64,000 nucleotides of DNA. Source: Sedimenticola thiotaurini. GTDB taxonomy: Bacteria; Pseudomonadota; Gammaproteobacteria; Chromatiales; Chromatiaceae. Both the position numbers and the translations under genes were made by a program. Below are positions 3,622 through 45,152 of the stretch, piece after piece (positions within the stretch are counted from its first letter, which is position 1; each line of letters begins with the position of its first letter). The stretch lies in the NCBI RefSeq assembly GCF_001007875.1, contig NZ_CP011412.1, forward strand, positions 3,782,001 through 3,846,000, in the 5' to 3' direction. Below the pieces are notes generated by a model. The model did no database searches, was not told the origin of the DNA, and saw nothing but the letters and a program-made list of their open reading frames with translations.

Positions 3622-3624
3622 CGT

Positions 3625-4611
3625 TCAATGATCATCGCGGGTAATCAAAAGGGCGTCGATCAGTGTCTCCTGGGGAAGTTTTTCCCCATTGATGGCACGG
3701 ATCGCAAATTGAATGCCGAGATAACCCTGTTCAGCGGCCTGCTGGTCGATGGTCGCCTGCAGAATCCCTTCATCAATCGCCTGGCGGGCTTCCTTGATCG
3801 CGTCGTAGCCGGCGATCAGGATATCGCTGCGCCCTGCCTCACCCACTGCCTTGATGATGCCGAGTGCCATCATGTCATTGGCCGCGAACACCAGCTGTAC
3901 ATCCGGATAGGTTGCCAGCCACTGTTGCATCAGGTGGTAACCTTCGTCGATCTTCCAGTTGGCGCTCTCACTGGCCACCAGTTCGATGTGGGGGTTTTCG
4001 CGAAACGCCTGCATGGCCCCCTGCATCCGCATGTCGGCGTTCTTGGCGGTGCGGATGCCTTCCATCAGGAGTGCCTTGGCGGGACTGGTGATCTGGTCGG
4101 CAATGTATTTGGCGCTCCGGTAGGCGGCCAGGCGATTATCCACGCTGATGAAGGGGACATCCTGTAGATCGCTTTTTCGGGAGAAGTCGGGGTCGAGCTG
4201 GTTATCGATGTTGATAACGGTGATCCCCATCTCCTGCGCCTTTTTCAACACCGGGATCAGCTCTATGGAGTCGCCCGGCGCAATCACAATGGCATCGACC
4301 TGGTCCCGTATCAGGCTCTCAATAATACCGATCTGTTGCAGAATCGAGGTCTCCTGGGCGGCAGTTTTGACCACCAGGTGAATGGCAAACTCCTGTTCCG
4401 CTTTCCGGGCACCCTTCTCCATTTCGACAAAGAACGGATTGGTGAGGGTTTTCATCACCAGGGCGATAGTCAATGTCTTCTGTTCGGTGGCCGAGAGCTC
4501 ATTGTCCCGTTGGTCGGACGTTGAATCGGGACTACAGGCGGTCATCAGGAGTGCCATGATGCCAAACAGCAGCGTCCCCAGGGCACGTCTGTATACCGGA
4601 CAATCTCTCAT
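3625..4611 (-). CDS. Periplasmic sugar-type substrate-binding lipoprotein (RbsB/LacI fold)
   Basis: 328 residues. The N-terminus has a signal peptide ending in a lipobox (LMTAC), predicting a lipid-anchored periplasmic protein. The mature part has the type I periplasmic binding fold of RbsB-like proteins: LTIALVMKTLTNPFFVEMEKG at the start, DAIVIAPGDS and VINIDNQLD in the N-lobe, and FAANDMMALGIIKAVGEAG in the C-lobe. Family members bind sugars, polyols or autoinducer-2. No ABC permease or ATPase gene lies beside it. Instead it is followed 3 nt later by a dCache-GGDEF-EAL receptor, an arrangement reminiscent of LuxP/LuxQ in which the binding protein acts as sensor rather than transporter. Ligand unknown. 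Confidence 0.88.
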   Translation of the reverse strand: MRDCPVYRRALGTLLFGIMALLMTACSPDSTSDQRDNELSATEQKTLTIALVMKTLTNPFFVEMEKGARKAEQEFAIHLVVKTAAQETSILQQIGIIESLIRDQVDAIVIAPGDSIELIPVLKKAQEMGITVINIDNQLDPDFSRKSDLQDVPFISVDNRLAAYRSAKYIADQITSPAKALLMEGIRTAKNADMRMQGAMQAFRENPHIELVASESANWKIDEGYHLMQQWLATYPDVQLVFAANDMMALGIIKAVGEAGRSDILIAGYDAIKEARQAIDEGILQATIDQQAAEQGYLGIQFAIRAINGEKLPQETLIDALLITRDDH

Positions 4612-6487: not shown

Positions 6488-7375
6488 TCAGCTCCTCAGT
6501 GCGCGGCCGGTCAGTTCGAGAAACAGATCCTCCAGGGTGCGGGAGCGGATCTGCAGGTGGGTCAGGGGTACCTGTTGGGCCATCAGCTGCCTGATGGTCA
6601 GGTTGATATCGTCACTCAGGATCTCCACCTGCCCGTTGGCGCGGCGCAGATTCAGCTGCGGATCCAGGTCGAGTGACGCCGGGACATCCTGGGCCGGCAG
6701 GCAGATCACCGAGTGGTCAAAGTGCTTCTTCAGCAACGCCCGGGGGGAACCCTGGGCGATGATCCGGCCGTGGTCCATGATGGCGATCTCGTCGCACAGC
6801 TCGTAGGCCTCCTCCATGTAGTGGGTGGTGAGCACCAGGGTTTTCTGCTCCTGCTTGATATCATTCACCAGCTGCCAGAAGTTGCGCCGTGCCTGGGGAT
6901 CCAGACCGGTGGTGGGTTCGTCCAGGAATACGATCTGGGGGTCATTCACCAGGGCGATGGCCAGCAGCAGACGCTGGCGCTGGCCACCGGAGAGACGCCG
7001 CACATCCCGGTCGAGAAACTCCGCCAGTGCACAGCGTTCGATCAGTTCATCCAGTGGACGGGTGTGGGTGTAGAGACGGCTGAACAGCTCCAGGGTTTCG
7101 CCGACCCGGATAAACTCCTGCAGCGAGGTCTCCTGGAACATGATGCCCGCTTCCTGCCGGAAGGTGGCACCGGTCGGCTCGCCCTTGTAGCGGATGCTGC
7201 CACTGGTGGGTTGGATGATCCCCTCCAGCATCTCCACCGTGGTGGTCTTGCCGGCCCCGTTGGGACCCAGCAGGCCGAAGCAGCTGCCGCGCTGGATGGC
7301 GAAGCTGACCCCGTTCACCGCCTGGACTTGGTGGAAATGCTTTACCAGGTTATCGACTTCAAGCAGCTTGTTCAT
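6488..7375 (-). CDS. ABC exporter ATP-binding protein
   Basis: 295 residues from the ATG at 7375; a GTG five codons upstream is also possible and neither start has a strong ribosome-binding site. It has the complete ABC cassette: Walker A GPNGAGKTTT, signature LSGGQRQRL, Walker B VFLDEPTTGLDP and the switch histidine in LTTHYMEEA. The DrrA/CcmA-like C-terminus (RSRTLEDLFLELTGR) is usual for ATPases serving ABC-2 permeases such as the next gene. It begins only 34 nt after the P-type ATPase gene ends, so read-through from the metal cluster is possible. Confidence 0.92.
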   Translation of the reverse strand: MNKLLEVDNLVKHFHQVQAVNGVSFAIQRGSCFGLLGPNGAGKTTTVEMLEGIIQPTSGSIRYKGEPTGATFRQEAGIMFQETSLQEFIRVGETLELFSRLYTHTRPLDELIERCALAEFLDRDVRRLSGGQRQRLLLAIALVNDPQIVFLDEPTTGLDPQARRNFWQLVNDIKQEQKTLVLTTHYMEEAYELCDEIAIMDHGRIIAQGSPRALLKKHFDHSVICLPAQDVPASLDLDPQLNLRRANGQVEILSDDINLTIRQLMAQQVPLTHLQIRSRTLEDLFLELTGRALRS

Positions 7376-7409
7376 GGGATGTCTCGGCACTCGGGACGGC
7401 TATTGTATG

Positions 7410-10073
7410 CTATCCGGATCTGGTCTGAAGCGGCTTTTGGCTGTCGCGATAGATCACGTCCCGGCGTATCAGCAGTTTCTCGCACTCCACCGCCAGCAGG
7501 GTCAGGGAGGCGATGGCGAAACAGATCAGCAGATCCGCCAGCGGCAGGGGGGCGGTATTGAACAGGGCATTCAGGGACGGGAGATAGATCACCGCCAGTT
7601 GCAGCACCACTGTCAGCATCACTGCCCCCAGCATGGCCGGATTGCTGAACAGCCCCTGGCTGAAGATTGACCGCTGGTCACTGCGTACCGCCATGGCGTG
7701 GAACAGCTGGGAAAAGGTCAGCACCGTCAGCACAATAGTCTGCCAGTTGGGGTCATCCTGTCCGATCGCCCAGGCCATGGAACCGATGGAGGTGGCACCG
7801 ATGAACAGTCCCACCCAGAGGATATGCTGCCACATGCCGTGGGCGAAAATGCTCTCCTCCGGCGGTCGGGGTGGACGCTGCATGCTGCCCGGCTCCTCCG
7901 GCTCCAGGGTAAAGGCCAGGCCCGGCAGTCCGTCGGTCACCAGGTTGATCCAGAGAATATGGATCGGCAGCAGCGGCACCGGCAGGCCCAGGAAGGGGGC
8001 GAGAAACAGGGTCCAGATCTCGCCCGAGTTGGAGGTCATGGTGTATTTGATGAACTTGCGGATGTTGTCAAAGATGCGCCGCCCTTCCCGGACCGCTTTG
8101 ACAATGGTGGCGAAGTTGTCATCCAGCAGCACCATGTCGGCGGCCTGGCGCGCCACATCGGTGCCGTTGTCGCCCATGGCCACACCGATGCCGGCCTGTT
8201 TCAGTGCCGGGGCGTCGTTGACCCCGTCACCGGTCATGGCGACAAACTCACCCTGTTGCTGCAACGCCTGCACGATGCGGATCTTCTGCTCCGGGGAGAC
8301 CCGGGCATAGACCCTCACCTCCCTGACCTGCTGCTGGAATTCATCCTCTGACAGTTGATCGAGCTGCTGACCGGTCAGCACCCGGGCCTGCTCCTGCACA
8401 ATACCCAGTCTGACCGCGATCGCTTTTGCCGTACCGGGGTGATCACCGGTAATCATCACCGGGGTGATCCCGGCCCGGCGACATTCGTCCACGGCAGCCC
8501 TGGCTTCGGCACGGGGCGGGTCGATCAGGGCGACCAGTCCCAGCAGGGTCAGGTGCTGATCCGCATCGTCCAGACTCTCCTCCGGTTCGGTGAAACGGCG
8601 TTGTGCCACGGCGATAACCCGGTATCCCTGGTTGGCCAGGGCCTCCGCCTGATCCAGCCAATCCCGGTTATGCAGTGCTTCAGGCCCCTCTGCCCCCCAC
8701 TGGTGATGACAGCGGGCCACCACCACCTCGGGGGCCCCTTTCACATAGGCGATGCTCCCGGTTCCGTCGGGGTGCAGGGTCAGCATCAGCTTGCGTTTAC
8801 TGTCGAACGGGATTTCTCCCCGTCGCGGCGCCTGCTGTTCCAGCGTCTGCTTCTGGAATCCGGCCGCTTCAGCCGCCTGGTACAGGGCCAGTTCGGTGGG
8901 CTCGCCCTGCGCTTGCTGCTGCTGTCGGGTGACGTCATTACAGAGTGCCAGCGCCTTGCCCATCTGGTGTGCGGCGGGTAGCGCCAGCGCCTCGGTCAGG
9001 GTGGAAAAGGGGCTGCCGGCAATCACAAAACGCTCCGCTGTCATGCGGTTTTGTGTCAGGGTGCCGGTCTTGTCGGAGCAGATGTAGGTCACTGAGCCGA
9101 GGGTTTCCACCGCCGGCAGGTTGCGCACCAGGCTGTTGTGCCGGCTCAGCCGCCGTGCCCCCATGGCCAGAGAGATGGTGATCACCGCCGGCAATGCCTC
9201 CGGGATGGCCGCCACCGCCAGGCTGATGGCGGTCAGCAGCATCAGCATCACCGGTTCTCCCTTGAACAGCCCGGTAATAAAAATCAGTGCACAGATCGCC
9301 AGGATGGCCAGGGCCAGGCGTCGGCCGAAACGGGCCATGCGGATCTGCAGAGGCGTCTGTACCGGTTTCTGCTCGCTCAGCAGCCTGGCGATCTGGCCGA
9401 TCTCGCTCTGCATGCCGATGGCGGTCACCACCCCTTCGCCCCGTCCCCGGGTGATGTGGCTGCCGCGAAACACCATGTTGTGCCGGTCCCCGGGTGGCAG
9501 GTTGGGGGTGGTGATCACGTCGCTATGCTTCTGGGCGGCCTGGGACTCACCGGTCAGCATGGATTCGTCGCTCTCCAGCCCCGCCGCTTGCAACAGGCGC
9601 ATGTCTGCCGCCACCAGGTTACCCGCCTCCAGCGAAACGATATCACCGGGTACCAGGTCGGGTGCCGGGACCGACTGCCGCTCTCCGTTTCGGCGTACCG
9701 ACACCTGGGGGATATCCATGGCCCGCAGGGCGGCTACCGCCTGCTCGGCACGATACTCCTGCACGGCACCGATCAGGCCATTGAGTGTCAGGATCACCAG
9801 TATGGCAATGCTGTCCTCCACTTCACCGATAATGCCGGAGACGATCGCGGCGGCGATCAGCACCAGGATCATGAAATCGGTAAACTGGTGCAGCAGCAGG
9901 AAAATCGGCGATTTGCGTTTTCCTTCACTGAGCAGGTTGGCGCCGTACTCTGTCCGCCGCTCCGCCACCTGCTGATCGGTGAGCCCCTGTTGCCGGTCAG
10001 AACCGAGGCGTGCCACAACCGCCTCCGCTGTCTCCTGGTAGCAGGCAGCGGCGCGATGTTGTGGTGTGTTCAT
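7410..10073 (-). CDS. P2-type cation-transporting ATPase (Ca2+/Mn2+-like)
   Basis: 887 residues with all landmarks of an active P-type pump: actuator loop MLTGESQA, phosphorylation site CSDKTGTLTQNRM, nucleotide-binding KGAPE and hinge TGDGVNDAPALKQAG. The TM4 motif IPEALPAV matches the PEGLP/PEALP ion-binding site of SERCA/PMCA-like pumps rather than the CPx site of heavy-metal pumps. It has an N-terminal cation-ATPase domain and about ten membrane segments, with TM6 WINLVTDGLPGLAFTLEP. This predicts export of Ca2+, Mn2+ or a similar hard cation from the cytoplasm. It starts 4 nt after the VIT-like gene, within an operon with that gene and the DUF211 gene. Confidence 0.93.
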   Translation of the reverse strand: MNTPQHRAAACYQETAEAVVARLGSDRQQGLTDQQVAERRTEYGANLLSEGKRKSPIFLLLHQFTDFMILVLIAAAIVSGIIGEVEDSIAILVILTLNGLIGAVQEYRAEQAVAALRAMDIPQVSVRRNGERQSVPAPDLVPGDIVSLEAGNLVAADMRLLQAAGLESDESMLTGESQAAQKHSDVITTPNLPPGDRHNMVFRGSHITRGRGEGVVTAIGMQSEIGQIARLLSEQKPVQTPLQIRMARFGRRLALAILAICALIFITGLFKGEPVMLMLLTAISLAVAAIPEALPAVITISLAMGARRLSRHNSLVRNLPAVETLGSVTYICSDKTGTLTQNRMTAERFVIAGSPFSTLTEALALPAAHQMGKALALCNDVTRQQQQAQGEPTELALYQAAEAAGFQKQTLEQQAPRRGEIPFDSKRKLMLTLHPDGTGSIAYVKGAPEVVVARCHHQWGAEGPEALHNRDWLDQAEALANQGYRVIAVAQRRFTEPEESLDDADQHLTLLGLVALIDPPRAEARAAVDECRRAGITPVMITGDHPGTAKAIAVRLGIVQEQARVLTGQQLDQLSEDEFQQQVREVRVYARVSPEQKIRIVQALQQQGEFVAMTGDGVNDAPALKQAGIGVAMGDNGTDVARQAADMVLLDDNFATIVKAVREGRRIFDNIRKFIKYTMTSNSGEIWTLFLAPFLGLPVPLLPIHILWINLVTDGLPGLAFTLEPEEPGSMQRPPRPPEESIFAHGMWQHILWVGLFIGATSIGSMAWAIGQDDPNWQTIVLTVLTFSQLFHAMAVRSDQRSIFSQGLFSNPAMLGAVMLTVVLQLAVIYLPSLNALFNTAPLPLADLLICFAIASLTLLAVECEKLLIRRDVIYRDSQKPLQTRSG

Positions 10074-34642: not shown

Positions 34643-35278
34643 TCAACTGGCCGGATTGCCCATCGCCTCAGCCTCCAGGCGCTGCTTCAGGTCTGCATCC
34701 AGACCGAGTTCAGTGGCCAGTTGGTCGAGATAGCTTCTTTCCAGAAAACCGGCTTCGCCAATCACCAGGGCGCTGGCGAGATAGACCTCGCTGGCCAACA
34801 GCTTGTCTCCGCCCGCTTCCGCCGCAATCGCACCGGGATCGAGGGGCGCGTTCAGCTCTGCCTCCATCCAACTGCGCAGTGCCGCATCACCGCCGTGCCG
34901 GGAGACCTCCTGGTCGATCAGGGCGCGTTCCCGCTCATCAATATGACCATCCACCCGGGCCGCCGCCAGCACGGCACGCAGCACGGCGCGACTCTCTGCC
35001 GGGTTGTTCATGGCGGGTATCTGCGGCTGTTCGCTGCCAGCAGTTTGGGCGCGATTCTGATTGTAGGCGCGCCAGGCCATGGTACCGAGTGCCGCAAGGC
35101 CGCCAAAGGTGGCCATCTTGCGCCCCGTCTTGCTGCCCAGCAGCAGGCCAATCAATCCGCCGGTGGCGGCACCCTTGCCAAAATCGGTAACACCTCCTTG
35201 TGGATTGGTTACCCCGGCATCGTTGAGAAACGACTTCCCGGCGCCAAGCAGTTGGTCAAGTAAACCTCGGGTATCCAT
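34643..35278 (-). CDS. DUF533 / YebE-like TerB-fold protein
   Basis: 211 residues with AAGGAG before the ATG. The N-terminal half is glycine-rich (GVTDFGKGAATGGLIGLLLGSKTGRKMATFGG) with one likely membrane-associated helix. The C-terminal half is a TerB-like helical domain (VLRAVLAAARVDGHIDERERALIDQEV, with metal-site-like D/E residues). E. coli YebE belongs to the same family and is membrane-stress induced; its function is unknown. Confidence 0.9.
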   Translation of the reverse strand: MDTRGLLDQLLGAGKSFLNDAGVTNPQGGVTDFGKGAATGGLIGLLLGSKTGRKMATFGGLAALGTMAWRAYNQNRAQTAGSEQPQIPAMNNPAESRAVLRAVLAAARVDGHIDERERALIDQEVSRHGGDAALRSWMEAELNAPLDPGAIAAEAGGDKLLASEVYLASALVIGEAGFLERSYLDQLATELGLDADLKQRLEAEAMGNPAS

Positions 35279-36010
35279 TATGTACTCCTTACATTCAGAT
35301 GGGTGAGTTTAAATCGCTAATTGTTGCTCGCATGACTGAACTGAAACTGAATTATAAAGCAGATCGTCGCGTGCAAGGTGTTTGAGTTGCGATTCCGAGA
35401 GCAGTTCCTTATCCCATCCAGAAAGCGGGTGAGTGCCGCAAAGTTCCCGGCAGATCCCTTCTGCCGGCGCTGTGGGGCCTGACATATAGATCCAGTTTAT
35501 AAAGTGGTACGGCCACTCCATGAAGAGTCGGCACTATTCAGCCTGGAGGGGTGACCCAAGTCAATTTCGTGAGCGGTGCTCAACCCGCTGGGAAGGGATG
35601 GGCGGGACACAATGCCGCCATGTTTGACCTGCTTAACTCGATCGTCAGCATGCCGGAAGTCGGTATTAATAATCCTGTAAACCTGTCTTTTTAAAGTGGT
35701 ATCCAGCGGTGTCATCCAGCTTTGTAATACCGAATTTTGTACAGCGTACTTTCTGCCATCATGCGGATGGAAAGTCCGAAGAAAAGCAGGGAGTCAGCTC
35801 GTTCGATTATATAAAAATTGGTGATTTGTAGCCCGCTGTAAAGAGGCGTATAACAATGTTGTTGGTACGTGTTCACCGCGTTAAATCCGCTCCAAACTAC
35901 GATGTACCATCGTAACAGCATTCCGCGACTGGCATTACTTCAGCTTCTCTTCTGTGCGTGATGCCAGAAGCCAGATTACTTCTGTTTTGACAACGAGTTG
36001 GGAGAAAACC
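35279..36010. other. 730-nt intergenic region without a clear gene
   Basis: No recognisable protein family, RNA or repeat. One minus-strand frame (35309-35521, with an internal ATG giving 58 residues starting MSGPTAPAEG) has three cysteines and reads like possible protein, but it has no homology clue and no strong ribosome-binding site, so it is not called. Confidence 0.4.
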
Positions 36011-36358
36011 ATGAAAAACTTTCCTGAACACTATAAAGAGATCAATGAGTGGATGAAGAAGCTGGGAATGGATATCCCGGAAGTCATGCAGGGCTTTGGC
36101 ATGTTGCATAAATCCGCTACTAAGCCAGGCGCACTGGATGGCAAAACCAAAGAGCTTATTGCGCTGGGTATTGCGGTAACCGTCCGTTGTGATGGCTGTA
36201 TCACATTCCATGTACATGATGCGCTGAAGGCCGGCGCAAGCAAACAGGAGATTGCCGAGACTGTGGCGGTCGCCATTCTTATGGGAGGCGGCCCATCTGT
36301 TATGTATGGTGTTGAAGCAATGCAGGCGCTCAGCCAGTATGAAGAGCAAGGCTTATAG
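36011..36358 (+). CDS. Carboxymuconolactone decarboxylase-family protein (AhpD-like)
   Basis: 115 residues from the ATG at 36011, with GGGAGA 6 nt upstream. It has the CMD/AhpD core: a helix rich in K and E, then KTKELIALGIAVTVRCDGCITFHVHDALKAG, where the CxxC pair plus HxxxA is the peroxidase/disulfide-reductase motif. AhpD-type enzymes reduce partner proteins using this pair, often in defence against peroxides. It stands alone, so no partner can be named. Confidence 0.93.
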   Translation: MKNFPEHYKEINEWMKKLGMDIPEVMQGFGMLHKSATKPGALDGKTKELIALGIAVTVRCDGCITFHVHDALKAGASKQEIAETVAVAILMGGGPSVMYGVEAMQALSQYEEQGL

Positions 36359-36513
36359 CACAGTGACAATGGGACTATCCCGGTAAGTCCTTAACAGATG
36401 TCCGGGAGATTGCGTGGTCTGGCGACCGCTATCCATGTAGGGTCGCCAGCTGCGGTAGGGTGCTTCCTGTTCAATACGTCGGCCAAACCGGGCGTGGTGC
36501 ATGTCGGCACATT

Positions 36514-37416
36514 TTACGGTTCGCCCAGGCTTAAACTGTGCCGTATCTCCGGCAACATCCTCTGTACGCATGCTTCCCCCTCGCTGATGGCCTCACTCGC
36601 CCGGTAGAACTCCAGGAGTCCGATATGGGAGAGCTTGGGTGACAGCAGAATATCCGGTGGATCTCCCGCCATACGACTTCTTGTGATCCGGTCCTGGGTG
36701 ATATTCACCGAGCTGGCGATGGCTTCAAACAGGCTTGGCGGCTGGTCCTTGGATCTGGAGTTGGAAAAAACCGAGGCGCGGTACTCTGTCACGAAGTCGG
36801 TGATGATGCCGGCCACACCTTTATTGCGTTTGGGAACGTTATTGGATTTCTGAAAATGCTTGCCAACGATGTCGTAGTTCAGGTTAACGGCGATAACCAC
36901 ATCAGCCCCCAGTGCCCGGCAGACCGATATGGGAACGGGATTGACCAACCCACCATCCACCAGCCACTTGTTATGGTTTCGGATGGCTGGAAACAGGCCG
37001 GGTAGGGAGATGGATGACCAAACGGCATTCAGCACAGCACCTTCGGTTAACCAGATCTCCCGGCCTGTTTCCAGGTCGGTAGCGACGGCGGCATACTTTT
37101 TATCGAACTCTTCGATCAACGCGTTATCATCCGCCACATGGGTGCTTAAGAAATGGCGTAGTCTTTCTGTGTTGACGAAACCTTTCAAAGAGGGACTGAT
37201 TTCCAGGAAGCGGGCGGTCTCAAACTTGGTCAATGAACGTACCCACTGTTCCAGATTATCCAGATTGCCCGACACATAGGCCGCACCCACCAGTGAACCG
37301 ATCGAAGTGCCGCAGACAATATCGGGAACTATGCCATGCGCAGCCAGCGCTTTGATGACCCCGATATGGGACCAGCCGCGCGACGAACCGCTCCCAAGGG
37401 CTAAACCTATCTTCAT
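36514..37416 (-). CDS. Patatin-like phospholipase (RssA/YchK type)
   Basis: 300 residues from the ATG at 37416 (GAGGAA upstream). The oxyanion loop GSGSSRGWSHIG, nucleophile elbow GTSIGS and catalytic DGG (LVDGGLVNPVP) form the Ser-Asp dyad of bacterial patatins. It lacks a signal peptide, as in RssA. It should hydrolyse acyl esters of lipids; the physiological substrate is unknown. A ~48-residue in-frame N-terminal extension lacks protein character and was left out. Confidence 0.94.
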   Translation of the reverse strand: MKIGLALGSGSSRGWSHIGVIKALAAHGIVPDIVCGTSIGSLVGAAYVSGNLDNLEQWVRSLTKFETARFLEISPSLKGFVNTERLRHFLSTHVADDNALIEEFDKKYAAVATDLETGREIWLTEGAVLNAVWSSISLPGLFPAIRNHNKWLVDGGLVNPVPISVCRALGADVVIAVNLNYDIVGKHFQKSNNVPKRNKGVAGIITDFVTEYRASVFSNSRSKDQPPSLFEAIASSVNITQDRITRSRMAGDPPDILLSPKLSHIGLLEFYRASEAISEGEACVQRMLPEIRHSLSLGEP

Positions 37417-37501
37417 CCGTTCCTCGTTCAATTCAGGGGGGCGGCGTACCGCGGGGAGCCTGCGGCTCTTTATGCGCAGCCTGTCCGGCAGGGCGGGCCG
37501 A

Positions 37502-37846
37502 TTAACCGGTTTCCCTGTGAGACGTATTGATTTTAAGCCAGAAACTCTCCTGACACGCATTCACAAAGACCTTTCTTTTCGGAACAATGTTCAAATCGGC
37601 TGGCTCGGCCACTACCTTATAGCTGATCCAGCACTCAGGACAAGCGCTGCTCTGCACGGTGTTATCCAGATCCACCTCAATGCTCTGCTGGATAGTCACA
37701 CCGTTGACAAATCGGACGGTCTGCTCCCGGTACTCGGTAACTAAGTCATCGTCCTTAACACGCTCTTCCTTGAGCTGCCGGTCGGCAATGAGTTTATCAG
37801 GAGTGCCGTTTTTGATGGCGGATATGTAGGTGGCCAGTTTGTTCAT
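37502..37846 (-). CDS. Hypothetical 114-residue protein
   Basis: Family not recognised. The sequence is charged in its first half (PDKLIADRQLKEERVKDDDLVTEYREQ), then has a beta-rich stretch and a cysteine pair (SACPECW) with a third Cys later. No signal peptide or membrane segment. The ribosome-binding site is weak. It lies 86 nt downstream of the DUF3861 gene on the same strand and may share its transcript. Codon composition is similar to neighbours, so it is probably real. Confidence 0.55.
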   Translation of the reverse strand: MNKLATYISAIKNGTPDKLIADRQLKEERVKDDDLVTEYREQTVRFVNGVTIQQSIEVDLDNTVQSSACPECWISYKVVAEPADLNIVPKRKVFVNACQESFWLKINTSHRETG

Positions 37847-37932
37847 GGATACTCGGATTCAACCGGCACAGCCGGGAATATTGACGATTACACCAAGCCG
37901 GTGCCTGGTCGCGGTGATACCGGCAGCACCTG

Positions 37933-38229
37933 TCATGGGTTGCTGTTCCCGGCCTTCAGGGCTTTCATAAACCGACTGAAGTCCTTCATAAATGCAGCGA
38001 ACAGCGGGTTGTCCCGGTTGTCCAGCATCACTTCACCGAACAGTTTTATTCCGATGGCCAGGGCGGCGGCATCATTTTGGCCAAGATCGTCCCGATTGCG
38101 CATCAACTCGACTATCTTAAATATATCGTCGTGGTTATCCACCTCTATCTGCAGTGGCGAATGGTTCGATATTTCACCTTTCGGATTGCTCAGATGCTCC
38201 AGAGTGACCCGGTACTTGTGCTTTGCCAT
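37933..38229 (-). CDS. DUF3861-family small protein
   Basis: 98 residues. It begins MAKHKYRVTLEHLSNPKGE and continues with PLQIEVDNHDDIFKIVELMRNRDDLGQNDAAALAIGIKLFGEVML, the pattern I recognise as DUF3861, a short cytosolic family of unknown role. It has alternating strands followed by two helices. It sits beside the IS3 element but is not part of it. Confidence 0.75.
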   Translation of the reverse strand: MAKHKYRVTLEHLSNPKGEISNHSPLQIEVDNHDDIFKIVELMRNRDDLGQNDAAALAIGIKLFGEVMLDNRDNPLFAAFMKDFSRFMKALKAGNSNP

Positions 38230-38413
38230 GAAATGGAATCCCTAAGTTAACAGTATAGGTAGGCCGGTAGATTGGGGTGACTCCCGAAAACTCAATGTGT
38301 TGAGGCGGCTATTCTTGTAGTTATTTCAGGGGGGGCTCCTGTCGTCTCCCGGTCTGAGCCTGATGAAGCTCGTGGGTAATCCCCCCATTTTTAATGACGT
38401 TCAAAAGTAGAGG

Positions 38414-39246
38414 TCATGCAACCTGGGTTAACTTCTGAATCGGGGTTATTCCACCAAGTGCCATATTAGGCCGTTCGTTATTGTAGCTCCAGAGCCATTT
38501 CGTTGCCGTCTCCTGGGCGTGAGCAATGGACTCAAACAGATGCTGATCTAACCACTCATGCCTGACCGTCCGATTGAATCGTTCCACATAGGCATTCTGT
38601 TGTGGCTTGCCTGGCTGAATATACTGGAGCTGGGTACGCTGCTTGTCGGCCCATTCCACCAGTCGACCGCTCAGATATTCTGGACCATTGTCGCACCGGA
38701 TCGCCTTGGGCTTTCCTCGCCATTCGATAATCTGCTCCAGGCTCCGGATTACTCGCAACGTCGGGAGTGACAGATCCACTTCAATACCCAGTCCCTCCCG
38801 GTTGTAGTCATCGATCACATTGAAGGTGCGGAAGCTACGCCCATCTCTCAATTTGTCATGCATGAAGTCCATTGACCACATATCATTGATCTGGCGTGGC
38901 ACGGCCAGTTCATCCGGCCTATCCCGCCTCAAGCGCCGTTTTGGCTTGATTCGCAGGTTGAGTTCCAACACCCGGTAGACCCTGTACACACGCTTGTGAT
39001 TGTAGCCATAGCCCTTCACATTGCGCAGATACAGAAAACAGAGCCCGAAGCCCCAGGTCCGGTGAGTGGTCGTCAATCTCAGCAGCCAGTCCGCTATATG
39101 GGAATTTTCACCCGAAAGCTTGGCCTAGTATCGATAGCAGGTTTCACTGATACCGAACAGGCGGCAGGCCATACGGATCGAAATCTGTCGCTGTTCAACC
39201 GCTTGCCTGGCCATCTCCCTGCGGCGAGATGGCCTTACCACTTTTT
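38414..39246 (-). pseudogene. IS3 transposase orfB, interrupted by an amber codon
   Basis: In the frame reached by -1 slippage from orfA the protein reads VRPSRRREMARQAV through FGISETCYRY and then meets TAG (39125-39127) before [15 protein letters not shown], where related elements have Gln (CAG to TAG). After the stop the rve catalytic domain is complete to 38414: [10 protein letters not shown] and VIDDYN (Asp residues), [10 protein letters not shown] and [15 protein letters not shown] (Glu). Unless suppressed, full OrfAB transposase cannot be made. Confidence 0.9.
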
Positions 39247-39501
39247 TTCAAGCGCTTCCTGGATAATCTCCGCCTTCAGCCGCTCTTCAGCGTACATCTT
39301 CTTCAGGCGGCGGTTCTCTTCTTCCAGTTCTTTCATGCGCTTTATCATGGAGACATCCATGCCCCCGAATTTGGAGCGCCAGTTATAGAAGGTAGCGTCG
39401 CTCATTCCGTGTTTTCGGCAGAGTTCAGCAACTGGTATACCGTTCTCGGCTTCCTTCAGGATGCTGATGATCTGGGACTCACTGTAGCGGGATTTCTTCA
39501 T
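39235..39501 (-). CDS. IS3 transposase orfA
   Basis: 88 residues. It has an N-terminal helix-turn-helix (SESQIISILKEAENGIPVAELCRKHGMSDATFYNWRSKFGG) and a leucine-zipper-like coiled coil (MKELEEENRRLKKMYAEERLKAEIIQEAL), the standard OrfA architecture for DNA binding at IS ends and dimerisation. At its 3' end seven As followed by G (39241-39248) form a slippery site that would shift ribosomes by -1 into orfB. Confidence 0.93.
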   Translation of the reverse strand: MKKSRYSESQIISILKEAENGIPVAELCRKHGMSDATFYNWRSKFGGMDVSMIKRMKELEEENRRLKKMYAEERLKAEIIQEALEKKW

Positions 39502-39573
39502 GTAGATTCTCCTTCAATCTCTATATTGGAAAATTCTACTTATAAACGCCACCATTTTTCGGGGGGATTACCC

Positions 39574-39635
39574 CCGCTCTGCGGCAAATTTGGAGCGCAG
39601 CAGAAAATTTGTGCGACAGCAGCGCCTTGTTATAC
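39574..39635 (-). repeat. Truncated attC site of the Gabija-like cassette
   Basis: On the minus strand the inverse-core box GTATAAC (39629-39635) exactly complements the cassette's own 5' boundary (GTTATAC at 42333-42339), as expected for a cassette and its attC. The following bases can pair imperfectly (CAAATTT with AAATTTG), but the site is cut at about 39574 by the IS3 element, so the terminal GTTRRRY box is missing. Confidence 0.7.
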
Positions 39636-39693
39636 GGGACGTATGTAATGGCCTTATCTATTCATTGTCGATTAAAATATAGCGATCAACAAA

Positions 39694-40728
39694 TTATATC
39701 CTGTACTTCTTTAATATTTTTTCGCTTACAAAGTACAAGTTACCTTTAGCTCTGGTACAGGCTACATAAAGTTTATTTCTAGTAGTTGGAGGCAACTGAG
39801 CTAGCTGACCAGACTCAAAGGCTTTAAAAGTCGTCGGGTTAAGTACCACGCATACGTCCTGAAAGTGATCAAGACCTTTAGTATTCCCCCAATTTTCATT
39901 GTATCCATAGTAGGAATTGCTTTTCTGATAAAACAGCTTAACTATGGAATCATTAAAATAGATATCTTCAACCTCCTGACTGTTGTCAACGAGGCGAACT
40001 TCTACTTGATCTTTACGATGAGACTGAATTTCAATTGCCAACTCGTTTTCCACAAAAGAACATACGCTTGGGCTACAACGATAACTGTGAGACAGTGATT
40101 CCAAGTCAATAGCAAATCCGGCATTAGATATCTTTTTACAATATTTACCGAAGCAGCTGTGTAGATTTTTTTGAGTATTTCCGTCTCTGCTGGTATCGAA
40201 TGTGTGTTGATAGAAATCCCCTACAAGAAGCATCTCGACATTGACATTAGCTAGGGCGCATATAAAGTTAAAATCGTTAGCTGCAAAATCCTGAACTTCG
40301 TCGATGCATACGAGATCAAAAAATGTCTCTATTCGTTCTATCACTTCAGGAACAACGTCAAATTCGATTAACAATTTTGCTATACGGCTTGCAAAAAGTC
40401 GATCGTTTTTGTCAAAGTAGTGTATCCTAGTATTTTTAGCGCTTCGCTGAGAATTTATTGGTAATGGATAGTTAAAGTTGATCCCTTTTGTTTTCACTTC
40501 GTAGCCGTATAAAGGTCTATAGCAAAATGAGTACAAAAATGTAAAATAAGAATATATTCGAACTCCTGCCGGAATTTTTCCTAACTTTTGAATTATTCTG
40601 TTTCTAAGGTGCTTAGTATTATTGTCTGTATACGTCACAATGAGACATCGACTGTCTTCTTCTACTCTATCAATTATGCTTGATGTTTTACCTGAACCAG
40701 CGACAGCAAAGACTACTCGTTTATCCAT
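39694..40728 (-). CDS. gajB: GajB-like UvrD-type helicase of a Gabija-like defence system
   Basis: 344 residues, much shorter than the ~490 of the described GajB. All main SF1 motifs are visible: Walker A AVAGSGKTS (8-16), motif II LVCIDEVQDF (139-148), motif III LLVGDFYQHTF (167-177), SHSYRCS (213-219), NTKGLDHFQDV (282-292) and VACTRAKGN (322-330). The missing length corresponds to reduced accessory 1B/2B domains. Its ATG lies inside the 3' end of the upstream gene (16-nt overlap), implying coupled translation. In Gabija, GajB senses DNA termini and activates GajA. Assignment rests on pairing and motifs; activity is not demonstrated. Confidence 0.8.
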   Translation of the reverse strand: MDKRVVFAVAGSGKTSSIIDRVEEDSRCLIVTYTDNNTKHLRNRIIQKLGKIPAGVRIYSYFTFLYSFCYRPLYGYEVKTKGINFNYPLPINSQRSAKNTRIHYFDKNDRLFASRIAKLLIEFDVVPEVIERIETFFDLVCIDEVQDFAANDFNFICALANVNVEMLLVGDFYQHTFDTSRDGNTQKNLHSCFGKYCKKISNAGFAIDLESLSHSYRCSPSVCSFVENELAIEIQSHRKDQVEVRLVDNSQEVEDIYFNDSIVKLFYQKSNSYYGYNENWGNTKGLDHFQDVCVVLNPTTFKAFESGQLAQLPPTTRNKLYVACTRAKGNLYFVSEKILKKYRI

Positions 40729-42278
40729 GCAATGGCCTGCTTAATATAGCTTGGTATATCTAAATTTTCTTCATAATGTTCTACAAGTCTAAATGCAGCC
40801 TCAGCCTTATTGTCTAGCATGAACTCAATAGGTTTCTTTTTTATGTTTCCTCCTGAAAACAATTTATCACAAATAGATTTATTGTCTTGATACATGCAGA
40901 CTTCAAATGTGTATCGGGTATTATCTGTATCTGAAAATACCTTGATATGGTCAGCAACATGATCCACATAATTGTCTACACAATTGGATTGATAATCTTC
41001 GTCATTATCCCGAATCACTGCGACTCTTATCCCCAAAGTTTTTGCTAACTCCATGTACCGTTTAAAACTAGTCCCGCCAACAGAAATTACATGAACAGAG
41101 TCTTCATCGAGACTTCTACCCGTTTCTCGTGAATAAAGTGCATCCAACAGCATGTATTCGGCATCGCCTTCTACCAGGATAACCTTGACTGAAAGAACAA
41201 ACTCTAGAATATTATTGTCAGGCGCCTTCATAAAAAACTTGGCTGTTGATTCTGAAAGGTTTTTAAGCATCAGAGGGCTATCACTAGAGCTATTGAGTAG
41301 TATCGAATAACGCAAATCTAAGCGTGTGCTGATTAGGCTATTGTGTGTAGCAATAATGATTTGATTTTTGTGAGAGCCCGATATTTTTGAGATCAGCCTC
41401 TTCATGTTCGAATGACTTAAATGATTTTCAGGTTCTTCTAACAACAGGGTGTCTATAGATTTCTTGTCTGCATTTCTACTTAACGCGAACTCGGTTTTTA
41501 TGAAGCATTGCTGCCCCTTTCCTCTTTCATCTATCGGAATTTGATCTTGAATAAGAGTTATATCAGTCTCTAAATTATACTTTGACCCTGAGCGAACTGA
41601 AAAGTCATAGTCCCCTAGCCTATCGTTAACATCTTTCAAATTGTTTTCTTTAAACTGAGCCTTATGATGGCGGTATTCGTTTTTTAGCCTAACTCGAGTT
41701 GCATGATCAACAGTTGAATCATACACAGACTTTGTATATTCCCTGTTTGCATATTCGCTATTGATTTGTGAGCTATCAATAGTTAAACACTTTAGGAAAC
41801 GGCGATATCCAGAATAGGCCTCTCCATTGAATGTCACAAACTTGACCACATAATATTCAAACGGAAAATTTTCGTTTCCTTCAGCAAGGACCTGATTTAT
41901 CTCGGCAGCGAGATCTTCACTCGGATGGCAAATCATGTGCAATCCGCTTAAGCTAGCATTATCTGAATTGTGTTTTCCCACGAGATCTGGATTGCCATCA
42001 TTATTTAAATAAATTTCTACGTGTATTTCTGGAAGCTTCTCAAAAGACTTGTCGGTAGTAAAAAATTCAGCGATAGCATCTTTATTTAGGATTGACTCAA
42101 TACCAATAGTCTCAACCTTATTTCGACTGCCACTCGCCACTAGCTCTATCGCTTGAAGAATCGAGCTTTTTCCTGACTCATTATCACCAATTATCGTATT
42201 AGTCTCAGAGCTAAACTCAACCTCAAATTGTCTAAATCTTTTAAAGTTGAAAAGCTTGAGCTTTTTAATATATTGCAT
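40713..42278 (-). CDS. gajA: GajA-like OLD-family ATPase/TOPRIM nuclease
   Basis: 521 residues. The N-terminal ABC/SMC-type ATPase has Walker A GDNESGKSS (31-39), a central insertion, Walker B LLLEEPENHL (278-287) and the switch IIATHNSLIST. The C-terminal TOPRIM domain has the catalytic Glu in VILVEGDAEY (366-375), VGGTSFKRYME and the Asp pair in VIRDNDED (422-429). An OLD protein followed by an overlapping UvrD-like helicase is the class 2 OLD / Gabija arrangement. The usual GajA length is ~580, so this one is somewhat compact. In Gabija it nicks DNA when nucleotides are depleted during phage replication. It is the first gene of the cassette; PARIS and retron OLD systems are less likely because of the helicase partner. 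Confidence 0.85.
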   Translation of the reverse strand: MQYIKKLKLFNFKRFRQFEVEFSSETNTIIGDNESGKSSILQAIELVASGSRNKVETIGIESILNKDAIAEFFTTDKSFEKLPEIHVEIYLNNDGNPDLVGKHNSDNASLSGLHMICHPSEDLAAEINQVLAEGNENFPFEYYVVKFVTFNGEAYSGYRRFLKCLTIDSSQINSEYANREYTKSVYDSTVDHATRVRLKNEYRHHKAQFKENNLKDVNDRLGDYDFSVRSGSKYNLETDITLIQDQIPIDERGKGQQCFIKTEFALSRNADKKSIDTLLLEEPENHLSHSNMKRLISKISGSHKNQIIIATHNSLISTRLDLRYSILLNSSSDSPLMLKNLSESTAKFFMKAPDNNILEFVLSVKVILVEGDAEYMLLDALYSRETGRSLDEDSVHVISVGGTSFKRYMELAKTLGIRVAVIRDNDEDYQSNCVDNYVDHVADHIKVFSDTDNTRYTFEVCMYQDNKSICDKLFSGGNIKKKPIEFMLDNKAEAAFRLVEHYEENLDIPSYIKQAIAWINE

Positions 42279-42332
42279 TTCTCACTTCCTCATCAGTCAT
42301 CAAGGCAATACACGCACATTTTTCGGTTGTCC

Positions 42333-42380
42333 GTATAACGCCGCAATCAGCGGCTTGTCCGCTGGATTGCGGCGTTAGAG
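42333..42380 (-). repeat. attC site of the 314-residue-protein cassette
   Basis: Minus strand: CTCTAAC (R'', 42374-42380), GCCGCAATCCAGCGG, 5-nt loop, CCGCTGATTGCGGC, GTTATAC (R', 42333-42339). The arms pair perfectly except for one extra C in the 5' arm, the kind of extrahelical base that orients attC recombination. R'' is the exact complement of the cassette's own 5' boundary GTTAGAG at 43304-43310. Confidence 0.85.
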
Positions 42381-43309
42381 CACTCTCCAAACTTTGATAT
42401 TATATCTACCAAGTACGCTAGGTCATGAGCCGCTTGCCAGTCGATCATGGATTTTCTACGTTTAGAGAATTCAATTGCAAACTTCCCTAACTCTAGAGCT
42501 GCAACACTTGATATTCCGACCATAGGTCCGCCAAAAAATGCTGCGCCAATACCTGCTGCTGCTACAGACTGTATATTTTTTGAATCAAGGATTATGGATA
42601 GTGACGAAACGATAGTGTCAAATCCGTGTTTCTTTCTGGCGATGTTATAATCCTCTAAACCCTTTGATATATCGTCCTCAATGTAACTGGCAGACTTGTT
42701 CGAGTAATTGCTGGAGAGAAAAACTCTAAGTCTTTGCAGCTTTTTCCTGGAATCGATGTCATTTCGTAGTTCGACAATTTGTTCCCAAGAGGCTTGTCCA
42801 ACATCAATTAGCTCCAAATTTGTCAAGCTAAGAATAGCTTCAAATGGACCGGTTTCATTGTTGCCCACTTCTGTAGGAAGAAGAATGTCACTAGATTTCA
42901 ACCCTAACGATCGCGCATATTCTTGGAAATGTGTCCTAATCGGCCCCAGCGTTTGGTGATAGCGATTTTCGAGGTACGCGGTAGAAAGATCATCGTAGTT
43001 TTCATCTTTCGAACTCTCAGATGATGGACTCCAATAATCTGAAGTTTTCTTGCGAAATACATCCCACTGGTCAATCACTTGACCAATAGCGTTGTATCTC
43101 TGTTTCTCTGAATAGTTGATTGCACTGTCATCAAAGACAATATCTACCATTGCCCTTGAAGGGATCTTCTCAGGAAACTCAAACACTATATCTGTTCCGG
43201 TTCCCTGCATACTGCGAAATGAAACTGGGAGTATTTTGTCAAAGTAAAGAGCAGCCTGCTTTACGTCCTTAAAACATACAACAGATGTCATTCTAGCTCC
43301 TTGCTCTAA
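42339..43309 (-). mobile_element. Integron-type gene cassette with one ORF
   Basis: 971 bp, from TTAGAGC at 43309 to the G of GTTATAC at 42339. It has typical cassette economy: the ORF starts 18 nt after the boundary behind AAGGAG and stops inside the attC. AT-rich compared with the core genes on both sides. Confidence 0.82.
42347..43291 (-). CDS. Cassette-encoded protein of unknown function, 314 residues
   Basis: Not recognised. The first ~90 residues are mixed alpha/beta; a Ser/Glu/Asp-rich stretch follows (SPSSESSKDENYDD); the middle is helical with charged segments. A hydrophobic, glycine-rich segment near residues 245-275 (VAAAGIGAAFFGGPMVGISSVAAL) could be a membrane hairpin. After it come KFAIEFSKRRKS and a final helix. 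The last ten residues (SNAAIQRTSR) are encoded by the attC and probably carry no function. The AAGGAG ribosome-binding site is strong. Its place upstream of a Gabija-like cassette makes a defence role possible, but cassettes are independent units and nothing in the sequence proves it. Confidence 0.85.
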   Translation of the reverse strand: MTSVVCFKDVKQAALYFDKILPVSFRSMQGTGTDIVFEFPEKIPSRAMVDIVFDDSAINYSEKQRYNAIGQVIDQWDVFRKKTSDYWSPSSESSKDENYDDLSTAYLENRYHQTLGPIRTHFQEYARSLGLKSSDILLPTEVGNNETGPFEAILSLTNLELIDVGQASWEQIVELRNDIDSRKKLQRLRVFLSSNYSNKSASYIEDDISKGLEDYNIARKKHGFDTIVSSLSIILDSKNIQSVAAAGIGAAFFGGPMVGISSVAALELGKFAIEFSKRRKSMIDWQAAHDLAYLVDIISKFGECSNAAIQRTSR

Positions 43310-43362
43310 CCTTTAAGCATTTATGCCGCGTGACTTTCATGTGGCATAAATGCCTGTTGAAC
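43304..43362 (-). repeat. Upstream attC site without a recognisable cassette gene
   Basis: Minus strand: GTTCAAC (R'', fits RYYYAAC, 43356-43362), stem arm GGCATTTATGCC..., loop, ...GGCATAAATGC, then GTTAGAG (R', 43304-43310). The arms GCATTTATGCC (43317-43327) and GGCATAAATGC (43343-43353) pair perfectly over 11 bp. The cassette it closed should begin with TTGAAC further right, but no such boundary or gene is seen. Confidence 0.75.
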
Positions 43363-43676
43363 TGAGCCGCCCTCGATAGGGTTGCCCAACTCTATTAATA
43401 AGAAATTGTTTTTTACCGGCTGCCCGGCGGTTTGCTATTTGGGGTGACAGCGCAGGAAGGTCTTCGGTGTTGTGCATTCCGGCCCCGCTTCCTGAAGGCT
43501 AGCCGCCCGTCTTTCTAACGATTTTTCTTCATAATGCCTCATTTTCCAGCCCGTGACCACTGCCTGCCCGTCAGACCCGTCGGGTCTGTTGATTGCCTAC
43601 ATCTTCCCCCGTGCAACGGGGCCAGCGTCACCCGCCGCCAGGGCGTCGCGGTGGTAACTCCACCACTATCCGCTTC
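43363..43676. other. 314-nt non-coding stretch between the attC and the HerA-like gene
   Basis: No gene. It contains a CAGACCCG T CGGGTCTG dyad (43572-43588) and a GTTAGAAA box on the minus strand near 43515. Neither gives a clear attI or integrase remnant. This is the right junction of the accessory region with core DNA. Confidence 0.4.
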
Positions 43677-45152
43677 TTACCGCTTACCCATAATCGAGCC
43701 CAGTATGCCCCTTATGATCTGCCGGCCGATGTTGCTGCCGACGGCCCGGGCGGCGCTTTTGAAAAAGGATTCCATCACGCTCTGTCGGCCGCGACCGCTG
43801 CTGCTCTTTTTGGCTTTGGCGACCTCTTTTTGCCGGGTCTGTTCCACTTCGGCGGTCTGCTGTTCTTCGGCCAGCTTGGCGGCGCGCTGGGTGAGGATTT
43901 CGTGGGCGGATTCCCGGTCCACCGCCTTTTCATAGACGCCGGCAACCAGGGAGTTGTTGATAATGCTTTTCCGCAGCGTTTTGGTGATGGGGCCGATCTG
44001 GCTCTCCGGGGGGCGGATCAGGGTCCGTTCCACCACGGTGGGGCGGCCCTTCTCATCCAGCGTGGAGACCAGTGCTTCGCCCAGGCCCAGTTCGCTGATC
44101 ACCTGTTCGGTATCCAGTGCCGGGTTGTCCCGGAAGGTCTGGGCGGCGGCACGCAACGCCTTCTGATCCTTGGCAGTGTAGGCGCGCAGGGCGTGCTGGA
44201 TGCGGTTGCCGAGCTGACCCAGTACGCTGTCAGGGATGTCCAGTGGATTCTGGGTGACGAAATAGACCCCGACCCCCTTGGATCGGATCAGCCGGACCAC
44301 CTGTTCGATCTTGTCCAGCAGCGCCTCCGGGGCGTCGTCGAACATCAGGTGAGCTTCGTCGAAGAACAGTACCAGTTTCGGTTTCTCCTGGTCGCCCACT
44401 TCGGGCATCTGTTCGAACAGTTCCGAGAGCAGCCAGAACAGGAAGGTGCTGTAGAGTTGGGGCGCGTTCATCAGCTGGTCAGCGGCCAGGATGTTGATCA
44501 CTCCCCGGCCATCCTGGTCGGTCTGTAGCAGGTCCGGGAGATTGAGGGCCGGTTCTCCGAACAACTTGGTACCGCCCTGATCCTCCAGGCTGATCAGGCG
44601 GCGCTGGATGGCGCCGACGCTGGCGGCGGAGACGTTGCCGTAGAGGGTGCGGAACTCCTTAGCGTTCTCAGCGACAAACTGCAGCATGGCGCGCAGATCC
44701 TTGATATCCAGCAGCAACCAGCCGTTCTCGTCGGCGACCCGGAACACCAGCGCCAGCACGCCCTGCTGGGTGTCGTTCAGGTTAAGCAGGCGCGCCAGCA
44801 GCAACGGCCCCATCTCCGAGATGGTGGTGCGTACCGGGTGACCCTGCTTGCCATAGATATCCCAGAAGGTGACCGGGAAGCCTTTAAAAGTGAAATCATC
44901 CAGGGGCATGCGGTCGAGCCGCTCCTGCACCTTGGGATGGGGTTTGCCGGGCTGACTGAGACCGGACAGGTCACCCTTCACATCGGCCAAGAATACCGGT
45001 ACCCCGAGGCGGCTGAAGGATTCCGCCAGCCCCTGCAGGGTAACGGTCTTGCCGGTGCCGGTGGCGCCGGCGATCAGGCCGTGGCGATTGGCCATCTTTG
45101 GCAGCAGTCCCACATCTTTATCGCTGCACCCCAGATAGATTGTCTGTTCCAT
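43677..45152 (-). CDS. HerA/FtsK-like ATPase, DUF853 (YjgR family)
   Basis: 491 residues, the normal YjgR size. Walker A GATGTGKTVT lies close to the N-terminus (GLIAGATGTGKTVTLQGLAESFSRLG). Then come VFLADVKGDLSGL, Walker B LVLFFDEAHLMFDDAP, the sensor VYFVTQNPLDIPDSVLGQLGNRIQHALRA and an arginine-containing C-terminal helix. The C-terminal ~70 residues are basic and coiled (KLAEEQQTAEVEQTRQKEVAKAKKSSSGRGRQ). HerA-fold ATPases pump DNA, but the YjgR family's role is not known. Core gene adjoining the cassette region. Confidence 0.92.
   Translation of the reverse strand: MEQTIYLGCSDKDVGLLPKMANRHGLIAGATGTGKTVTLQGLAESFSRLGVPVFLADVKGDLSGLSQPGKPHPKVQERLDRMPLDDFTFKGFPVTFWDIYGKQGHPVRTTISEMGPLLLARLLNLNDTQQGVLALVFRVADENGWLLLDIKDLRAMLQFVAENAKEFRTLYGNVSAASVGAIQRRLISLEDQGGTKLFGEPALNLPDLLQTDQDGRGVINILAADQLMNAPQLYSTFLFWLLSELFEQMPEVGDQEKPKLVLFFDEAHLMFDDAPEALLDKIEQVVRLIRSKGVGVYFVTQNPLDIPDSVLGQLGNRIQHALRAYTAKDQKALRAAAQTFRDNPALDTEQVISELGLGEALVSTLDEKGRPTVVERTLIRPPESQIGPITKTLRKSIINNSLVAGVYEKAVDRESAHEILTQRAAKLAEEQQTAEVEQTRQKEVAKAKKSSSGRGRQSVMESFFKSAARAVGSNIGRQIIRGILGSIMGKR

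Follow-up and report, generated by a model that had tools for sequence, protein, structure and literature searches.

The window examined here is a stretch of 64,000 nucleotides of the Sedimenticola thiotaurini genome (contig NZ_CP011412.1). Within it, an ORF of 314 codons, P0001, runs on the minus strand from an ATG at 43291 to a TGA at 42347 (42347-43291), and an AAGGAG Shine-Dalgarno sequence lies 5 nt before the ATG. The first-pass annotation of this DNA had given these coordinates and the length of 314 residues for a real ORF, with no mention of the minus strand. P0001 lies in an inserted segment (35279-43676) flanked by two core genes, one herA-like (43677-45152) and the other DUF533/TerB-like (34643-35278). 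In the reading direction of P0001, the order of features is a remnant of an IS91-like element (43668-43307), the boundary sequence GTTAGAGC, AAGGAG, P0001, an attC site, gajA, gajB and an interrupted second attC; the insert also holds patatin-, CMD- and DUF3861-type genes. The GC content and GC3 of P0001 are 42% and 39%, versus 62% and 80% for the neighbouring core gene herA, and the full window is 58% GC; for the cassettes the GC content is 37-42%, versus the 62% of herA. Promoter-like sites near the P0001 ORF did not rise above the chance level, so that native expression is uncertain.

P0001 sits in a genuine integron gene cassette, here called cassette A. The 5' end of a cassette is complementary to the first box of its own attC, because the circular form joins the two. 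The 5' boundary of cassette A, GTTAGAGC (G|TTAGAGC, 43303-43310, minus strand, with the G at 43310), is the exact reverse complement of GCTCTAAC, the R'' box of its own attC at 42381-42374, with all 8 of 8 letters matched. The attC itself (42332-42381, minus strand) is an attC-like palindrome, short at about 50 nt, which consists of the R'' box, palindromic arms and the R' box GTTATAC, and its recombination point lies between 42339 and 42338. As single-stranded DNA it folds at -22 kcal/mol (z = -8.2), and none of 200 shuffled sequences was as stable. The same complementarity is found for the Gabija cassette, where GTTATACGG at 42339 pairs with CCGTATAAC at 39637 (9/9 letters), and for a third array of this genome, where GTTATAAATC pairs with GATTTATAAC (10/10 letters). 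The 5' core of cassette A, GTTAGAG, is one letter off GTTRRRY, and the site has the boundary type and the palindromic arms of an attC; a regular-expression scan for canonical attC sites did not pick it up, because its boxes deviate from the strict consensus by one letter. The cassette structure proposed in the first-pass annotation thus stands, with both boundaries exact in a test that was independent of that first reading, and so does its placing of the stop codon within attC (42349-42347 inside 42381-42332). Its ribosome-binding site 18 nt after the boundary was misplaced: it is the ATG that lies 18 nt past the boundary, while the AAGGAG lies about 7-12 nt past it. The sole integron integrase above the family cut-off in the genome (G000:C1:2526309, at 2.526 Mb) is 1.3 Mb from the window, and no integrase with attI adjoins cassette A; the two cassettes therefore form an array without an integrase of its own, that is, a CALIN-like array.

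The upstream border of cassette A, the boundary of the first-pass annotation, is not the end of another attC but that of a truncated IS91-like element (43307-43668, minus strand) that abuts the cassette 5' boundary. Judged from the position of the transposase 3' end, this is the oriIS side. Over the 362 bp upstream of cassette A, identity to the ends of two full IS91-like elements located elsewhere in this genome (L012 and L026) is 97%, and the terminal 21-mer occurs 3 times in the genome. Elsewhere in the genome the element additionally encodes a tyrosine recombinase. The two other copies also directly precede cassettes, namely the first cassette of the integrase-side array (L012) and a cassette of the third array (L026). 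At all three places the end of the element falls exactly at GTTA, the integron cassette 5' core (window 43307-43668; L012 about 7278-9700; L026 about 2111-4500), and two related copies in the sister species G844 (L049 and L055) likewise abut GTTA. Cassette recombination sites may be what the IS91-like element targets; alternatively, its end may serve in place of an attI.

The cassette next to P0001 carries a compact Gabija system on the minus strand. GajA (40713-42278, 521 aa) has an ATPase and an OLD-like TOPRIM domain (PADLOC GajA, E = 1.2e-108; Pfam OLD-like_TOPRIM, E = 1.6e-21), and GajB (39694-40728, 344 aa) is a compact UvrD-like helicase (PADLOC GajB, E = 4.4e-54). The first part of the Gabija attC (39573-39637, minus strand), with CCGTATAAC as its R'' box and exact complement of GTTATACGG, is similar to a 58-bp stretch elsewhere in the genus (93%, in G850). 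At about 39572 this attC is interrupted by an IS3-type insertion sequence (38375-39572, minus strand), of which the genome holds three further full-length copies at 95-97%; because the element splits the site, excision of the Gabija cassette should be blocked. A compact Gabija of the same type is present in G845 (L063, G845:C10, 2607-6489; GajA 522 aa, GajB 343 aa), where it adjoins conjugation-like genes and is directly followed by a 427-residue ORF.

Across the genus, the stretch separating the herA-like gene from the DUF533/TerB-like gene is a site of variable insertion (window; L058, L059, L064). It is empty in the sister species G845, in which the herA-like gene is followed directly by the DUF533/TerB-like and AEC transporter genes, the pair that starts at 35278 in the window. 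In G844 it is occupied by genes for a type III restriction enzyme and its methyltransferase, together with those for a Fic protein and a zeta-toxin-like ATPase. Ordinary genes adjoin herA in G846, G848, G849 and G850, so the site is variable and not exclusively defensive.

No family match to P0001 was found in Pfam, NCBIfam, PADLOC or PHROGs, in agreement with the earlier statement that the protein has no recognised family. Nothing in the PDB was significant; the single match of P0001, to a type VI secretion protein, was rejected at E = 0.87, and the sole match of the P0001 family profile was rejected at E = 0.25. No relative turned up when the single sequence of P0001 was searched against genome contigs, viral contigs, plasmids and phage records. 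Iterated searches yielded relatives, five in total, one from the whole-genome search and the others from small profiles, and the resulting homologue set of six sequences spans 22-52% identity. Weak matches were rejected as chance in G195, where the match is an unrelated long frame inside a murD-like gene, and in G655, G697 and G707, where unrelated long frames were matched. A 16S pattern search aimed at Enterobacterales genomes found none. By profile search, two genomes among 369 of the class carry the family, and two among 210 of the order, with the query genome counted in each figure; the family is thus rare and patchy.

The relatives were found in the following settings. L016 (343 aa), which is 26% identical to P0001 over residues 3-296, comes from a P2-like prophage, where it is found in the stretch from gpA (PF05840, E = 2.8e-119) to the portal gene gpQ. 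It is the first gene after gpA and is monocistronic, being followed by a terminator-like hairpin and then about 0.9 kb to the next gene. A second unannotated gene lies in this gpA-gpQ hotspot (L016, 6940-7842), encoding 300 aa with a hydrophobic N-terminus; it matches nothing in PADLOC and nothing significantly in Pfam. L020 (342 aa), 52% identical to L016, lies in a second prophage near integrase and exonuclease genes. L002 (249 aa), in G288, adjoins a 129-residue ORF that matches the C-terminal part of ThsB (a ThsB/TIR fragment, E = 1.1e-11) and is within 9 kb of a type IIG restriction-modification gene and both PD-Lambda-5 genes; as the fragmentary ThsB indicates, this neighbourhood is decayed. 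The G288 defence island (L014, 525-10366) is inserted beside an oxidoreductase operon and contains two more ORFs without assignment (7045-7584 and 7809-8426). L031 (341 aa), in G956, which is of the same family as the organism of the window, is 36% identical to P0001 over 144 residues and is inserted between nuoM and nuoN beside a BrnT gene and a CopG-type antitoxin gene (a BrnT/BrnA pair). In G956 (L035, 6400-9679) the end of nuoM is present twice around the L031 insertion, as if the gene end had been duplicated or regenerated. L018, from an acidobacterial MAG, is a truncated relative of 235 residues. PADLOC found nothing in P0001, L016 or L002.

The family thus recurs in defence hotspots and islands, namely the gpA-gpQ locus, the island with PD-Lambda-5 and type IIG restriction-modification genes, and the Gabija-containing array, in what is a plain tally from a small sample. 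With the second prophage and the BrnT/BrnA neighbourhood, these settings bear out the defence association suggested in the first-pass annotation. Neither of the outcomes that it had named as refuting arose: the homologues are associated with mobile DNA, and no housekeeping match to P0001 was found.

In the alignment, the invariant positions (P0001 numbering) are K11, A14, F17, L156, W169, E170, Q171, D178, D206 and Y215. They fall in an N-terminal DxKQAALYFxKxxP box, a WEQI(V/M/I)E(L/F/I)RxD box and a helix-like YIxDDI...Y stretch; no catalytic motif was found in P0001. The family consensus aligns through its C-terminal half with DUF6236 (PF19749), at profile positions 160-323 (E = 3.5e-5, 23.6 bits), and L031 matches at 171-323 (E = 4.7e-4, 19.9 bits), in each case below the cut-off of 26.2 bits; both matches are colinear to the profile end. 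P0001 itself gave no match to DUF6236 at E <= 1. Because the matches are colinear but under the 26.2-bit cut-off, the family was filed as remotely similar to DUF6236, and not as a member of it. The two are of similar length (the profile has 324 positions), but the N-terminal half is unmatched, and the function of DUF6236 is itself unassigned. DUF6236 was not found above its cut-off in 185 genomes, and a literature search found no mention of it. Matches of the consensus to the HrcA C-terminal domain (E = 0.006 and 0.0009) were rejected, as they score under DUF6236 and below that domain's own cut-off. By these profile comparisons, P0001 is one member of a small and very divergent family that shows a remote relationship to DUF6236 in its C-terminal half. 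AlphaFold was run twice, on 4 and on 3 sequences, and the mean pLDDT values of 37 and 39 were too low for a confident fold.

A hydrophobic hairpin near residues 245-275, with a possible membrane-disrupting or membrane-anchoring role, had also been proposed for P0001. A Gly/Ala-rich hydrophobic stretch does exist, at about residues 243-275, but the membrane-disrupting role is a weaker point of that reading: the 19-residue maximum is marginal, and the stretch is absent from L018. The best 19-residue Kyte-Doolittle mean of P0001 is 1.64, a value reached by 25% of shuffles of the same protein; the corresponding maxima in relatives are 1.46, 1.47 and 1.85 (1.46-1.47 being those of the prophage relatives), values that 18-63% of shuffles attain. 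Over 40 residues the hydrophobicity of P0001 is more unusual, being reached by 2.7% of shuffles. The stretch is hydrophobic in all full-length relatives, without conservation of its sequence. It would fit a buried hairpin and a membrane-inserting one equally well, and it is marginal as a transmembrane segment.

P0001 is a single gene within its cassette, and it and its relatives lie in mobile and defence contexts. A single gene, a tiny and rare family, and occurrence in an integron, a prophage hotspot and a defence island together have the look of the known single-gene anti-phage systems, and for this reason we read P0001 as stand-alone. From these contexts P0001 probably has a role in defence; by a smaller degree of confidence, we favour the fuller reading that it is a mobile, stand-alone accessory gene on a promoterless cassette whose product is a single-protein anti-phage defence. 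Counted against defence is that the contexts are guilt by association, which is weak for integron cassettes and prophage accessory genes: most integron cassettes have functions that are not known, and prophage accessory genes can serve other purposes. The small homologue set, the decay around L002, the want of a catalytic motif and of a confident fold, and the marginal hydrophobic stretch weigh against it as well, whereas the type III restriction system at the same chromosomal site in G844 and the share of V. cholerae cassettes with anti-phage activity speak for it. P0001 might instead be a prophage- or integron-borne accessory gene for lysogenic conversion, stress or metabolism, caught by chance near defence genes. 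Besides the general lack of assigned functions among cassette genes, this would fit the capacity of the P2 hotspot and of the herA-DUF533 site to hold non-defence genes, as with the patatin-, CMD- and DUF3861-type genes of the insert, and the ordinary genes next to herA in the four other genomes named above. The repeated defence or prophage contexts at four unrelated loci and the lack of any metabolic family match argue the other way, and we consider a non-defence role unlikely.

Toxin-antitoxin cassettes are common in chromosomal integrons, where they stabilise the arrays, and P0001 could similarly be a cassette gene with a selfish or stabilising function, such as a toxin or an addiction module of its own, in place of a defence gene. 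The BrnT/CopG-type pair next to L031 and the hydrophobic Gly/Ala-rich stretch would suit such a gene; the cassette, however, has one gene only, with no ORF for a partner antitoxin, the prophage relatives are likewise single genes, and proteins of 314-343 residues would be long type I or II toxins, all of which makes this explanation quite improbable. The position of P0001 upstream of gajA, which the first-pass annotation had correctly described, and on the same strand raises the further question of whether it serves the adjacent Gabija as an accessory or regulatory subunit. P0001 has no GajA or GajB domain (no PADLOC match), both gene sets are enclosed by complete cassette boundaries of their own, and none of the relatives adjoins gajA or gajB. 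Further, G845 carries a GajA 54% identical to that of the window, together with GajB, in a different setting and without P0001. A Gabija subunit, already disfavoured, is thus very improbable; there is no sign of a functional tie, and the neighbourhood is explained by two independent cassettes.

If P0001 is indeed a stand-alone anti-phage protein, a soluble, mostly helical product might sense an infection-associated cue, perhaps through the DxKQAALYFxKxxP box and the variable middle part. The signal would then pass through the C-terminal WEQI(V/M/I)E(L/F/I)RxD and YIxDDI helices, and the outcome could be a response of growth arrest or membrane perturbation that employs the Gly/Ala-rich hairpin, by which phage growth would be stopped. 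The membrane step is speculation and, even granted a defence role, somewhat doubtful. We suggest only tentatively that P0001 founds a single-protein anti-phage family that travels as a cassette, as a P2-hotspot gene and as a defence-island gene, with a fold and trigger absent among known systems. The anti-phage idea lends itself to a direct test, as full-length members of the family are at hand from three carriers (integron, P2-like prophage and second prophage) for expression side by side. If P0001 protects, a small family that neither PADLOC-DB 2.0.0 nor Pfam contains would join the single-gene systems exchanged by integrons and prophages, and its role would be the first functional lead for proteins near DUF6236. 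The protein family would be undescribed as judged against PADLOC-DB 2.0.0 and Pfam.

Among known systems, Gabija resembles P0001 as its immediate neighbour in the same orientation, but it occupies a separate cassette, shares no domain with P0001 and is not co-inherited with it. Another likeness is to the systems of one gene each that occupy the P2-like hotspot, among them old, tin and the DUF4238 protein (Rousset et al. 2022, PMC9122126). The gpA-gpQ locus of E. coli P2-like phages is an antiviral hotspot, with old-tin in P2 itself and many tested defence systems (PMC9122126), and L016, a lone stand-alone gene, has that same gpA-gpQ position; P0001, L016 and L002, however, have no sequence similarity to any named system that PADLOC could detect. 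Defence genes in integron cassettes are likewise an established kind, and about 10% of V. cholerae integron cassettes have anti-phage activity on expression (review, PMC12409362). Cassette A resembles the anti-phage cassettes of Vibrio chromosomal integrons and of mobile integrons (Darracq et al. 2025; Kieffer et al. 2025; reviewed in PMC12409362) in being small and promoterless, in its attC and in adjoining a compact defence system, and the host genome of P0001, like those integrons, has an integron integrase. Unlike those cassettes, the P0001 cassette is not part of the array that bears the integrase but is 1.3 Mb away from it, behind an IS91-like remnant.
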